From Bacteroidia bacterium (GTDB lineage: Bacteria > Bacteroidota > Bacteroidia > Bacteroidales > UBA7960): a stretch of 61,307 nucleotides of DNA. The notes under the pieces were generated by a model, which was not told where the DNA came from, searched no databases, and saw only the letters and a list, made by a program, of their open reading frames with translations. Shown here one piece after another: positions 25,579 to 30,719 of the stretch (the first letter of the stretch is position 1; each line of letters opens with the position of its first letter). The DNA is taken from NCBI GenBank assembly GCA_007695305.1, contig REEA01000188.1, forward strand, positions 1 through 61,307, read 5' to 3'. The position numbers and the translations under genes were made by a program.

Positions 25579-25688
25579 CCGGTCCGGGCTAACTGTATTC
25601 CATTATCCATTTGCTGCGGTTAAAACAAATATGCATGCTTTCACGTTCCATTTACGTCACCCGTTTAAGGATGTTTTTTCATTACAGA

Positions 25689-27536
25689 ATGTTTCCGTTT
25701 ATGCCAAAATATATTTTATTTCAGGTTTTCTTAAGCTCATTGTTTATGGTGTTCACCGGCGGATATGCCATTTCACAGGACGCCACAAATGAGCGACTTG
25801 CCGCGCAATTTCTGCGCGACGGACAATACGAGGAGGCACGTGCCTTGTATGAGGATCTTTTTGCAGAAAATCCCACATACATGATTTACAACAACTACCT
25901 TGAAAGCCTTTTTGCATTGGAAGAATTCAGACAGGCCGAAAGGGTTGTCAATAAACAGATTGAAAGGCATCCGGCTGATTTCCGCTACCGTGTTGACCTG
26001 GCGTGGGTGCACGAACAATCCGGCAATTCCCGCAGGGCACAAAGGCAAATGGACGATCTGATCAGTGAGCTCTCTGCAAACGCTGATGATGTGATCGGCC
26101 TTGCCATGGCTTTTGAAACCCGCGGTTTTATGGAAAGATCTCTTGAAACATATCTGCGTGGAAGACGATTGCTTGGTGATACCCACCCACTTCATCTGCG
26201 CATCGCCGGAGTACATGAAAAAATGGGTAATTTCAACGCCATGATGGAAGAATATGTTAATTATCTGGATGATTATCATAACGAGATGGACCGTGTGCGC
26301 GGCATTCTTCAGGATGCCATCGCGAACGACCCCGGCTTTGAGAGAAATGATGCCCTTAGAAGGGTTTTGTTGGCCAGAACACAACGGCATCCCGATAATG
26401 TAATGTATTCCGAAATGCTTTTGTGGCTCTCCATACAACAACAGGATTTTCGCATGGCATTTATGCAGGCCCGGGCCCTTGACCGCCGATTGCAGCAAGA
26501 AGGGAAACCCGTTCTGGAAGTGGCAAATCTCAGTACCAATAACAGAAACTACCGGATCGCAGCCGATGCCTATCAGTACCTGTTGAACATGGGTGAAGAC
26601 AGCCAATTTTACCTGGAAGCACTCGTGGGTTATCTAAATGTGCGCTTTTTGTCGGTGGTTGATGAATACGAATACGATGTAGCCGACTTGTTGAATATTC
26701 AGGAAGAATACCATGCTGCCATCGAGAGCCTTGGGATCAACTCAAGAACCGTGCAAATCGTCCGCAATCTGGCCAACCTCAAAGCTTTCTATTTGAATGA
26801 TAGCGATGGAGCCATCCAATTGCTCGAAGCCACACTTGATCTTCCCAATATTTCAAACCGTGTAAAAGGGGAGTGCCGTATTGAGTTGGCAGATATCTTG
26901 CTGCTCACCGGTGAAGTATGGGATGCCACTTTGCTGTACTCCCAGGTAGACCGCATGTTCAGGGATGATCCACTCGCCCATGAGGCAAAATATAAAAATG
27001 CCAGACTTACCTATTTCATCGGGGAGTTTGACTGGGCAAAGGCGCAGCTGGATGTGCTCAAGGGCGGCACCCACAGGCTCATTGCCAATGATGCCATGAG
27101 GTTGTCACTTCGAATCCAGGACAACCTGGGCATCAACGGAGACCCTGTTCCCCTGAAAATGTTTGCAAGAGCCGAACAGCACATATTTATGAACAATTTT
27201 GACAAAGCCTTGATGGTACTGGATTCCATACACGAACGCTTCCCTTTGCACCAGATCAATGATGACCTCATATTTGCCCGGTCAGAGATCAAACGGCAAC
27301 GTGGCGACTATGCGGCTGCCGATAGTTTGCTGGCTGTTGTCGTTGCTGACTTTCCGGCCGGACTGCTTGCCGACGAAGCATTGTTTCAAAGGGCACAACT
27401 GCATGAGCATTATTTCAAACAACCGGACAAGGCCATGGCCCTTTATCAGCAACTGATGATTGATTTTCCGGGCAGCCTGCATACCATTACTGCCCGAAAC
27501 CGCTTCAGGATCCTGCGCGGTGATATCGTCAACTGA
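25689..27536 (+). CDS. Exported TPR-repeat protein
   Basis: About 615 aa if ATG at 25689 is the start. The frame is open from a TTG at 25611, and ATG codons at 25635, 25671 and 25701 are also possible. A signal peptide (ILFQVFLSSLFMVFTGGYAISQ) points to export. The rest is helical with many degenerate tetratricopeptide repeats, for example LAAQFLRDGQYEEARALYEDLFAENP near the N-terminus and DEALFQRAQLHEHYFKQPDKAMALYQQL near the C-terminus, like YbgF/BamD-type scaffolds. Function unknown. It is 14 bp upstream of rsmA and probably co-transcribed with it. Confidence 0.82.
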   Translation: MFPFMPKYILFQVFLSSLFMVFTGGYAISQDATNERLAAQFLRDGQYEEARALYEDLFAENPTYMIYNNYLESLFALEEFRQAERVVNKQIERHPADFRYRVDLAWVHEQSGNSRRAQRQMDDLISELSANADDVIGLAMAFETRGFMERSLETYLRGRRLLGDTHPLHLRIAGVHEKMGNFNAMMEEYVNYLDDYHNEMDRVRGILQDAIANDPGFERNDALRRVLLARTQRHPDNVMYSEMLLWLSIQQQDFRMAFMQARALDRRLQQEGKPVLEVANLSTNNRNYRIAADAYQYLLNMGEDSQFYLEALVGYLNVRFLSVVDEYEYDVADLLNIQEEYHAAIESLGINSRTVQIVRNLANLKAFYLNDSDGAIQLLEATLDLPNISNRVKGECRIELADILLLTGEVWDATLLYSQVDRMFRDDPLAHEAKYKNARLTYFIGEFDWAKAQLDVLKGGTHRLIANDAMRLSLRIQDNLGINGDPVPLKMFARAEQHIFMNNFDKALMVLDSIHERFPLHQINDDLIFARSEIKRQRGDYAAADSLLAVVVADFPAGLLADEALFQRAQLHEHYFKQPDKAMALYQQLMIDFPGSLHTITARNRFRILRGDIVN

Positions 27537-27549
27537 AAACCTCACAAGC

Positions 27550-28335
27550 GTGCACGCATACCAGGTCACACCCAAAAAACATATGGGCCAGCACTTTCTG
27601 GCTGATCCAAATATAGCCCGGAAAATCGCTGAAAGCCTCTCAGGAAGCCAGCATTACGCCTATGTGCTGGAAGTTGGCCCCGGCACAGGTATGCTTTCCC
27701 AATTCCTCATGGGAAAGCCCAATCACCAATGGATAGGTGTTGAACTTGATTCTGAATCCGTAAACTTTTTAACAACAAAATACCCGGATTACGCATCTTC
27801 TGTTATTGAAGCAGATTTTTTGCATTTTGATCCTGAAAAAATACTGGCAGACCAACACTTTGCCCTGATAGGAAACTTCCCATACCACATCTCAAGCCAG
27901 ATTATATTTAAGGTGTTGAAACATCGACAGCAAATACCTGAAGTGGTGGGCATGCTGCAAAAAGAAGTTGCAGAGAGAATTGCAGCCAAACCGGGAAGCA
28001 AAACCTATGGTATCCTGAGCGTATTATCTCAGGCTTTCTATCATGTGAAACTGTTGTTCACCGTGCCTCCACATGTCTTTGTGCCGCCACCGAAGGTACG
28101 GTCGGCAGTGCTGCGCTTTGAAAGAAAGGAAGACATTGTCCTTGACTGTGATGAGACACTGTTTTTCAAGGTGGTGAAAACAGCCTTCAATCAACGTAGA
28201 AAAACCTTAAGAAATTCCCTAAAGACCATGGCGGTAGCATGGGATATGCTGCCCGCTGATTTACCCCAAAAACGACCGGAGCAATTGTCAGTCAGTGATT
28301 TTGTTGCGATTACCCGGAATGTGGGCTTAAAATGA
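27550..28335 (+). CDS. rsmA: 16S rRNA dimethyladenosine transferase (KsgA)
   Basis: 261 aa; dimethylates two adjacent adenines in the helix 45 loop of 16S rRNA. Motifs: GQHFLADPNIARKI, the SAM-binding LEVGPGTGMLSQFL, and the catalytic NFPYHISSQI (the NLPY variant). The open frame runs upstream to 27460 inside the TPR gene. GTG at 27550, just before HAYQVTPKKHMGQHFL, gives the family N-terminus, so I choose it; it lies 14 bp after the TPR stop. Confidence 0.96.
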   Translation: MHAYQVTPKKHMGQHFLADPNIARKIAESLSGSQHYAYVLEVGPGTGMLSQFLMGKPNHQWIGVELDSESVNFLTTKYPDYASSVIEADFLHFDPEKILADQHFALIGNFPYHISSQIIFKVLKHRQQIPEVVGMLQKEVAERIAAKPGSKTYGILSVLSQAFYHVKLLFTVPPHVFVPPPKVRSAVLRFERKEDIVLDCDETLFFKVVKTAFNQRRKTLRNSLKTMAVAWDMLPADLPQKRPEQLSVSDFVAITRNVGLK

Positions 28336-28370: not shown

Positions 28371-28405
28371 TTGTTTCCTGTTCGTTCGAAAAAGCTTAAT
28401 TTTGT
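28371..28405 (+). promoter_or_regulatory. Candidate promoter of the PP2C-like/LysM gene
   Basis: TTG (28371-28373) and TAATTTTG (28398-28405) with a 24-bp spacer. The box lies 27 bp before ATG 28432, and it argues against the upstream in-frame start at 28402. Confidence 0.5.
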
Positions 28406-28431: not shown

Positions 28432-29754
28432 ATGGCTACTAAAAAGCTGAATAAATTTGAGTATGCGGGAGAGGAAGTTCCGGGCAGTGCCGGTTTTAGA
28501 GGTTTGCACCGGCAAGCTGCTTTTGAAACCCCCGCCGGTTATGCCTTTGTGGTTGTTTCATCTGCCGTTGAAGAAAAAATCCAGGCAGACTTGACCGCTG
28601 TGGTAATCGATCGCATCCGTTATTACATGAACACGGAAACGGAAGACCGTATTTCATCCCTCCCCGGGAATGCACTTGTTTATACAAGCGGATATCTCAA
28701 ACTGCAGAGTGAAAAGGGTCAGGGAAAAGAGGCCAAAGAGATCAGCTGTTTGTGTGTATTGTTCCATAAAGAGGTCATCCATTATGCGGCTGTTGGTGAT
28801 GTTTGTTGCTGGTTATTTACTGACCGGAAAATGATCCCTGTATATCAGCCGCCTTCAAAAACACTGACAGAGTCTGACACGGATCGGAGCTATATGGGTA
28901 ATAAAAGCCTTATCAAACCGGCAACCGGAACCTCGGCCGGTTTAGCTCCCATGGATCATGACATGCTTTTGCTGGCCTCATCATCACTATGCAACTGCCT
29001 TGCCGAAAAACAGGTCAGAAAGATATTGCAGGACTCTATGCCACTTGGATCCAAAGTCCTGAGGGTGCTGCAGCATGCATGTAAGGAAACACCCGCAGAA
29101 GCTGCCGCGCTGATGATCCTGTCATTTTATGACCTGCAGAACCGGGAAAGGATCATTGCACCCGTTGAGCAGCCGGACGCTCAAAATCAAGGTATTAGCA
29201 AAGAAAAGCCAAAAAACAAAGCCGGAACAAAAACCACTGCTGCAAAACCCGCAGCATCTGCCGGCATATTGTCGTGGTTAAAGCTTGGTCTGCAAATTCT
29301 TGCCCTGGCATTTGTCGGCTACATGATTTATGACCTTTTCATTTTCGACCCCCATCCACCCATACACATTCCTCCTGCTACAACTGTTGTGGAACAGGAT
29401 GTAGTTATCGATCTCCCGGAGGATTCCATATCGGCACACACGCAGGCGCCACCGGCAATGCCGGATGATGTGAGTTATACGGTTCGCACCGGTGACTCCT
29501 GGTCAAACATTTACCGTCAGTTCAGGGTTTGCTCCTGGTTTATCATCAACCATCCTCCCAACAGGGGCCGGTTGGGCAGAGATGGCAGTTTGATCGCCGG
29601 GCAAAGCCTCCGCATACCCGTGAAATACTCAGGAAGTCCCGATCTGAATCCATATTATTACCATGAGTTTACCCTCGATCAGGTTGGCAGTAATTGTCAG
29701 AATGCCGGCAGAGAGTTTCTTGAATCTTTTGAGGCAAAATATCAAAACCCCTAA
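28432..29754 (+). CDS. Degenerate PP2C-like domain, membrane helix and LysM domain
   Basis: A 440-aa protein with an unusual layout. Residues 20-235 resemble a PP2C/SpoIIE phosphatase fold: AAVGDVCCWLFTDRKMIPV corresponds to the GD(S/T)R..L strand, and DHDMLLLASSSLCNCLAEKQVRKIL to the LLLCSDGL region. The usual metal-binding Asp of DGMGG and SDGL is absent. A Lys/Ala/Pro linker (245-277) leads to one transmembrane helix (279-304), then an extracytoplasmic LysM domain (348-398, YTVRTGDSWSNIYRQF...QSLRIPV). I infer a cytosolic pseudo-phosphatase joined to a periplasmic peptidoglycan-binding module. The PP2C assignment is by pattern only. Confidence 0.7.
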   Translation: MATKKLNKFEYAGEEVPGSAGFRGLHRQAAFETPAGYAFVVVSSAVEEKIQADLTAVVIDRIRYYMNTETEDRISSLPGNALVYTSGYLKLQSEKGQGKEAKEISCLCVLFHKEVIHYAAVGDVCCWLFTDRKMIPVYQPPSKTLTESDTDRSYMGNKSLIKPATGTSAGLAPMDHDMLLLASSSLCNCLAEKQVRKILQDSMPLGSKVLRVLQHACKETPAEAAALMILSFYDLQNRERIIAPVEQPDAQNQGISKEKPKNKAGTKTTAAKPAASAGILSWLKLGLQILALAFVGYMIYDLFIFDPHPPIHIPPATTVVEQDVVIDLPEDSISAHTQAPPAMPDDVSYTVRTGDSWSNIYRQFRVCSWFIINHPPNRGRLGRDGSLIAGQSLRIPVKYSGSPDLNPYYYHEFTLDQVGSNCQNAGREFLESFEAKYQNP

Positions 29755-29762
29755 CCAGGATT

Positions 29763-30719
29763 ATGTTAGTGAAAGGCATCGTGCTTATCGTGGATCCTGT
29801 TCATCCTTTGCTGATGGAAGAGCTTAAGGCTGTTGGTTTTGAATGTGTCTGCGAACCGGAAATCCCATTTGATGTTTTTATGGAGCGCCTGCCGCATCTC
29901 ACCGGCATCATTATCCGGAGCCGATGGAAGCTGGATAAAAAGGTGTTGCAAAATGCAGGGAAGTTACGCTTTGTGGGCCGGATTGGCAGCGGCCTGGAGA
30001 ATATTGACGTGGACTATGCCCGAAAAAAAAACATTGTATGTTTGAATACCCCCGAAGGTAACCGGCAGTCAGTTGGTGAGCATGCTGCAGGGATGCTGCT
30101 GACACTGGTAAACAAAATCTGTTCGGCCGACCGGGAAGTACGTCAGGGTATATGGCAGCGTGAAAAAAACTGGGGGACAGAAATCCATGGCAAAACCCTT
30201 GGAATTATTGGATATGGAAACACGGGAAGTGCATTCGCTGAATGTATGAAAGGCTTTGGTATGGAAATTCTCGTCTATGACAAATACAAAACCGGCTTTG
30301 GTTCGGATCATGTCAGGGAAGTTACGCAAAATGAAATTTTTAAACGGGCAGATGTGTTGAGCCTGCATGTGCCGCTAACGGATGAAACCCACCATCTCGT
30401 AAACAGCCGGTATCTGGCGAAATTTCAAAAACCGGTATACCTGATAAACACAGCACGGGGTGCCGTGGTTTCTACAGATGATCTGCTGGAAGCCATTGAT
30501 AACGGTAAAGTACTGGGAGCAGCACTCGACGTTCTTGAATATGAGCGTTTTTCTTTTGAGCAATTGGATTTTGAACAACTTCCCGGATCATTCAGGCGCC
30601 TGGCACAATTGCCTGAGGTGGTCCTTACGCCGCACGTGGCAGGCTGGACAAATGAATCCTATATGAAACTTTCTAAAGTTATGGCGGAAAAAATCAAACG
30701 GTTATTTGCAGGAGGTTGA
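29763..30719 (+). CDS. 2-hydroxyacid dehydrogenase, phosphoglycerate dehydrogenase-like
   Basis: 318 aa, NAD(P)-dependent D-isomer-specific 2-hydroxyacid dehydrogenase. The Rossmann motif is LGIIGYGNTGSAFAE, the catalytic Arg is in NTARGAVV, the Glu in ALDVLEYE and the His in LTPHVAG. It lacks the ACT domain of full SerA, so it could be a short 3-phosphoglycerate dehydrogenase or act on another hydroxyacid. It starts 8 bp after the LysM gene and overlaps the convergent aspartate kinase gene by 18 bp at the 3' end. Confidence 0.88.
   Translation: MLVKGIVLIVDPVHPLLMEELKAVGFECVCEPEIPFDVFMERLPHLTGIIIRSRWKLDKKVLQNAGKLRFVGRIGSGLENIDVDYARKKNIVCLNTPEGNRQSVGEHAAGMLLTLVNKICSADREVRQGIWQREKNWGTEIHGKTLGIIGYGNTGSAFAECMKGFGMEILVYDKYKTGFGSDHVREVTQNEIFKRADVLSLHVPLTDETHHLVNSRYLAKFQKPVYLINTARGAVVSTDDLLEAIDNGKVLGAALDVLEYERFSFEQLDFEQLPGSFRRLAQLPEVVLTPHVAGWTNESYMKLSKVMAEKIKRLFAGG

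Follow-up and report, generated by a model that had tools for sequence, protein, structure and literature searches.

Loss of catalysis on the PP2C fold is known in eukaryotes from TAB1. PHLPP2 is another eukaryotic PP2C fold that has lost its catalysis (PMC12002173). In bacteria, PstP is a transmembrane phosphatase that works with PASTA kinases encoded in the same operon (PMC12088040). This survey of bacterial PP2Cs, from 2025, gives PstP as its transmembrane example, and its main text does not mention LysM. Helices alpha1 and alpha2 of PP2C phosphatases form a regulatory switch that is moved by regulatory regions and by dimerisation, as in SpoIIE (PMC5468089). FimV/HubP combines a LysM domain in the periplasm with a partner-organising cytoplasmic part, the two being joined by one helix (PMC12918733). 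Bacterial pseudokinases are already being catalogued. In the open-access literature we found no description of a bacterial PP2C-type pseudophosphatase joined to a wall domain, and the PP2C pseudophosphatases found there were eukaryotic only; such an absence is weak evidence, and within this literature the view of the first-pass annotation that such a protein is not described was supported.

The window analysed here is a stretch of 61,307 nucleotides (contig REEA01000188.1) from a metagenome-assembled Bacteroidia genome of 2.9 Mb that is 94% complete (G000). It carries a gene for a protein with a PP2C-like domain, a transmembrane helix and a LysM domain (Table 1). Computational analysis established the fold, the loss of the active site, the maintained selection and the single origin of this protein family, together with the loss of the signalling partners in G000. 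On balance, we lean towards the view that the protein is a former receptor phosphatase rebuilt as a membrane pseudophosphatase, in which the LysM domain would bind the wall and the PP2C fold would serve for docking or dimerisation.

Table 1. Features of the pseudo-PP2C locus, in window coordinates
Feature	Residues	Position	Strand	Basis or remark
rsmA (16S rRNA dimethyladenosine transferase), upstream neighbour		27460..28335	+	Pfam RrnaAD 3.7e-51; order conserved across the family
Pseudo-PP2C / transmembrane / LysM gene	440 aa	28432..29754	+	ATG start; conserved start, full-length orthologues
PP2C-like domain	9-234	28456..29133	+	AlphaFold2, Foldseek against PDB, profile against PDB sequences
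Former DGMGG metal site, now SSAVE	43-47	28558..28572	+	Alignment with intact homologues
Helices alpha1-alpha2, PP2C switch helices	49-94	28576..28713	+	DSSP of model; conservation contrast; switch role from PMC5468089
Former GDSR motif, now GDVC	122-125	28795..28806	+	Alignment
Former SDGL metal site, now SSSL	183-186	28978..28989	+	Alignment
New invariant motif D-x-M-P, ahead of last long helix	201-204	29032..29043	+	D, M and P in 42/42 of family; beyond it, M and P vary
Former GGxDN metal site, now TPAEAA (GGxDN columns read TPAEA)	220-225	29089..29106	+	Alignment
Single transmembrane helix, N-in / C-out	279-305	29266..29346	+	Model helix, hydropathy, charge bias
LysM domain	346-396	29467..29619	+	AlphaFold2 pLDDT 94; Foldseek; weak Pfam LysM, E 0.19
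Conserved post-LysM extension	397-440	29620..29751	+	C422 probably pairs with C367 (29530-29532)
D-isomer 2-hydroxyacid dehydrogenase, downstream neighbour		29763..30719	+	Pfam 2-Hacid_dh_C 5.2e-53; in part of family only

The ATG start of the gene lies in the motif M-x-T/N-K/R-K-L/F-x-x-F-E-Y/F, which is kept across orthologues. A TTG start upstream, at 28402, was rejected because extensions 5' of the ATG had no conservation in orthologues. A nucleotide-pattern search of genome contigs yielded a single locus. Orthologues are present in 45 of the 47 sampled genomes of the window's family, one copy each, and are full-length or clipped only by contig ends; a full-length single-sequence search of 51 genomes of other families found no orthologue, save one weak match to LysM only. 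In the family, the locus runs in the order serS, a TPR protein, rsmA, the pseudo-PP2C gene, in part of the family the 2-hydroxyacid dehydrogenase gene (which in the window begins 8 nt past the end of the pseudo-PP2C gene), aspartokinase and an ECF sigma factor. Because the early TTG listed for rsmA makes its open reading frame overlap the end of the TPR frame (27460-27536), the true start of rsmA probably lies further downstream. The TPR protein (25611-27536) 5' of rsmA occurs in the majority of the genomes tested from the order; it seems to be conserved in the Bacteroidales and has no named function. It was rejected as a specific partner, being order-wide and mostly in genomes without the pseudophosphatase.

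From the sequence alone, the first-pass annotation had proposed a PP2C topology for the N-terminal region, with a single helix placing a LysM domain on the opposite side of the membrane, and structure prediction agreed on the fold. AlphaFold2, run on the 42-sequence family alignment, gave a model (pLDDT 84.7) with the strand and helix order of PP2C, a helix at residues 279-305 and a second compact domain. When this model was compared with the PDB by Foldseek, the top matches were all PP2C phosphatases: 2pk0 (E 2.1e-12), PstP 1txo, tPphA 2j82 and Stp1 5f1m, with TM-scores by target of 0.71-0.83. The profile of the 42 orthologues also matched solved PP2C phosphatases among the PDB sequences at 2.5e-14 over residues 20-232. 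Thus the model, Foldseek and the family profile all place the domain in the PP2C/PPM superfamily with its alpha/beta sandwich; a prediction lacking this fold, which the annotation had named as counter-evidence, did not arise. The window protein as a single sequence had no PP2C match in Pfam and no usable one in NCBIfam, and the family alignment was needed to reveal the fold. Since Pfam finds nothing in the single sequence, the earlier PP2C call was a genuine case of remote-homology inference.

The topology also agreed. The model has one transmembrane helix, flanked in the window protein by six Lys or Arg residues before it and none after it. Across the family, there are 273 Lys or Arg residues before the helix versus 105 after it, and 155 acidic residues before versus 342 after. 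Cys-367 and Cys-422 are invariant (42/42), and invariant cysteines occur only in the predicted periplasmic part. Because the charge bias and the outer-only invariant cysteines match the expected pattern, the N-terminus is predicted inside and the C-terminus outside; the prediction thus does not put both domains on one side of the membrane, the other outcome that the annotation had named as counter-evidence. The invariance of the two cysteines also suggests that they probably form a disulfide in the periplasm.

The last 100 residues, modelled alone, gave the beta-alpha-alpha-beta fold of LysM (pLDDT 94), and nearly all best Foldseek matches of the isolated domain were LysM proteins, with probabilities up to 0.99 and weak E-values (0.07 and above). 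Such E-values are expected, because the match covers only about 50 residues and the domain continues into an additional C-terminal stretch. Pfam LysM (PF01476) scored the window protein at 12.2 bits, below its gathering score of 20.9 bits, and reached an E-value below 0.01 in only 1 of 42 family members. The outer parts of some intact homologues (L138:3429-4832, L141:5579-7576) end in C-x(n)-IPLxYSxxxxYNPxxYQ, as in the window's family. This shared motif suggests that the unusual type of LysM arose before catalysis was lost.

To describe the active site, we aligned the window protein with 25 homologues from other families of the order. None of the four metal-binding aspartates (in the NED, DG, SDG and DN motifs) is retained in the window protein, and only 1 of the 16 catalytic and second-shell positions is kept. 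The columns of DGMGG and SDGL, whose aspartates the first-pass annotation had reported missing, indeed read SSAVE and SSSL. The flap subdomain, which characterises active PP2C/PPM enzymes, is reduced to 13 residues versus 29 in intact homologues. Against the Stp1/IreP family model NF033484, the window protein scored 16.6 bits versus a curated cut-off of 230, which the two intact homologues tested passed with 266-268 bits. The protein thus combines lost catalytic motifs with selection on the domain that held them, the mark of a pseudophosphatase, and judged by its sequence it is very unlikely to dephosphorylate anything.

In a PP2C-domain tree, one split (SH-aLRT 100) separates the window's family from the other homologues, and the family has a single origin. 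Homologues with the PP2C-transmembrane-LysM layout elsewhere in the order mostly have an intact PP2C domain. Among the homologues read from elsewhere in the order, about half had a detectable LysM, and several had outer parts of another kind or without a recognised domain, so this layout is common in the order and not universal. Beyond the order, a small home-made LysM profile found no transmembrane PP2C with a LysM in 30 loci fetched from a 248-genome sample. Outside the family, 13 of the 23 scored homologues adjoin a Hanks-type Ser/Thr kinase, and several of these kinase-adjacent homologues have a membrane FHA protein as a third gene (the Pfam names were confirmed on examples). In each of the 13 kinase-adjacent homologues, 14 or more of the 16 active-site positions are kept, compared with 3 of the 10 non-adjacent ones outside the family; this cut for an intact site was chosen after seeing the table, and because the tree shows only about two independent changes, we claim no significance for the association.

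At the thresholds used, neither a Hanks-type kinase nor an FHA protein nor a second PP2C was detected in G000 (94% complete). A partner kinase in this organism, for which the first-pass annotation had suggested a search by conserved co-occurrence, is therefore not supported, whereas homologues elsewhere have partners next door. None of the loci of the family has a kinase adjacent to the pseudo-PP2C gene, and the kinase-phosphatase-FHA module is absent there. In 20 of the 31 family genomes tested, no kinase reached the Pfam cut-off; those with a kinase are all nine genomes of genus g5, one of g4 and one of g1. No FHA protein was found in 19 of the 20 family genomes tested. The counts for g5 come from the Pfam search, and in the cases where the sequence was read, the kinases are of a TPR type or lie in another locus. 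Thus partner loss accompanies catalytic loss in the larger part of the family, though not throughout it.

Several loci showed other arrangements. One g5 genome (G024) has, besides its pseudophosphatase, a separate cluster of kinase, intact PP2C and FHA genes (L152:4872-9195). The sole kinase-like match in genome G002 (L154:1519-3342) is weak and fragmentary; it falls on a short contig with foreign-looking proteins, and may be contamination. In family f116 (L132, L133, L144), an intact PP2C-transmembrane-LysM gene adjoins a multi-helix TPR protein resembling TMTC (Pfam PMT_2/TMTC_DUF1736), not a kinase. In family f87 (L090, L092, L093), such genes have no neighbouring kinase, and the active site is eroding separately (DG to NG or GG); from these substitutions, f87 is a possible second origin of pseudophosphatases.

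Both domains of the window protein are under purifying selection. Over the seven close pairs in which it could be computed, the PP2C part had a dN/dS of about 0.12-0.19 and the LysM part one of about 0.04-0.16, with higher values in the linkers. In the other homologues, the 16 catalytic columns are by far the most conserved (0.49 versus 1.91 bits elsewhere); within the family, these former catalytic columns vary more than the other columns (2.64 versus 2.04, P 0.007 by column resampling), a difference that is not significant in the window's subclade alone (P 0.17). On the other hand, Arg-61, Tyr-64, Met-203 and Pro-204, which vary in other homologues, are invariant throughout the family, and Gly-87 and Arg-211 are nearly so. 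Arg-61, Tyr-64 and Gly-87 lie on the switch helices, which the model places at residues 49-68 and 74-94. Since the catalytic columns have relaxed while new invariant residues have arisen, the constraint on the PP2C part has moved and is not gone.

We propose that the protein is a pseudophosphatase of the inner membrane whose periplasmic domain binds the wall. Its ancestor would have been a receptor-type phosphatase, with PP2C inside, one helix and LysM outside, of a kind that in other Bacteroidales usually has genes for a Ser/Thr kinase and for an FHA protein as neighbours. In the window's family, catalysis would then have been lost in steps, with the kinase and FHA partners absent from most genomes. 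The LysM domain may sense or hold peptidoglycan, and the PP2C fold may act as a docking or dimerisation module through the switch helices, with their Arg-61, Tyr-64 and Gly-87, and through D-x-M-P; this module would relay the state of the wall to a cytoplasmic partner, or position that partner, without dephosphorylation. As both domains are under selection despite the lost catalysis and partners, a rebuilt, phosphate-free wall sensor or anchor is suggested, and phosphate-independent wall sensing or scaffolding is what we best infer for its function. A wider version is more tentative: across the family, an ancestral wall-responsive phosphatase may have become a phosphate-independent wall sensor, with moving switch helices, in cells without Hanks-type phosphorylation.

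The main rival to a report on the state of the wall is a pure wall anchor. The cytoplasmic domain would then have no signalling role, being a folded leftover kept for insertion, stability or spacing, and the periplasmic LysM would serve as a wall anchor or localisation tag. LysM is indeed the most conserved part of the protein (mean pairwise identity 0.55 versus 0.36), the active site is relaxed, and the conserved cysteine pair sits in the outer part. Nevertheless, dN/dS in the PP2C part is far below that of the linker, and this part has invariant, family-specific residues of surface type that other PP2Cs do not need. We consider the leftover domain unlikely, though it deserves weight.

It is improbable that the protein has remained an enzyme, whether by a shift of its metal ligands or by using the PP2C fold for another chemistry. 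Migrated catalytic residues do occur in some pseudoenzymes (PMC10211241), and the loss of the aspartates is graded: genus g3 has all four, g5 has none to four, so that g3 and part of g5 hold Asp at three or four metal positions, and the window's genus, g4 and g6 have essentially none. However, the window's clade has no conserved acidic residue at any of the four sites, its conserved acids Asp-177 and Asp-201 fall outside the motifs, and the flap is mostly gone. The earlier description of a dead phosphatase is accordingly firm for the window's genus and less so for its sister genus g3, in which the four retained aspartates make weak activity possible at the base of the family. As read from the alignment, catalysis was lost stepwise within the family.

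A further alternative, which we regard as very improbable, is that the protein protects or sequesters phosphoproteins, as a STYX-like substrate trap acting on phosphorylation by other kinases. This is a known mode of pseudophosphatases (PMC10211241), but the phosphate-binding centre is not conserved, and G000 has neither a Hanks-type kinase nor an FHA reader in a search that covered kinases of the Hanks type. Finally, a decaying pseudogene would explain the lost catalytic residues but is refuted by a reading frame that is open in every orthologue read, by a single copy in a fixed locus after rsmA throughout the family, and by dN/dS well below 1.

Returning to the pseudophosphatase with a wall-binding domain, its living relatives lay out the steps of the change: the intact enzyme with its kinase neighbour, intermediates with some of the aspartates, and dead forms in kinase-free genomes. 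This series would allow tests of what a PP2C fold does after catalysis is lost, and of whether the switch helices alone carry a signal.

Compared with the known systems, the window protein has the fold and the order of secondary structure of Stp1/IreP-type bacterial PP2Cs (NF033484; 2pk0, 5f1m, 2j82) over residues 9-234, but it differs from them in its missing metal aspartates, its mostly lost flap and its low family score (16.6 versus 230 bits). TAB1 and PHLPP2 differ in being eukaryotic, without a wall domain, and the products of unrelated loss events. FimV/HubP resembles the window protein in layout only and has no PP2C fold. PstP of M. tuberculosis (1txo) likewise has a cytoplasmic PP2C domain, one helix and an outside part, but it is enzymatically active, its outside part differs, and its kinases are present. 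The PP2C-transmembrane-LysM proteins of other Bacteroidales with an adjacent kinase and FHA gene (L132, L134, L135, L137, L140 and others) have a homologous PP2C domain and an equal layout, and several of the homologues with this layout share an N-terminal motif of the L-K-N-F type with the window protein; they differ in being mostly intact, with LysM detectable in about half of those read.
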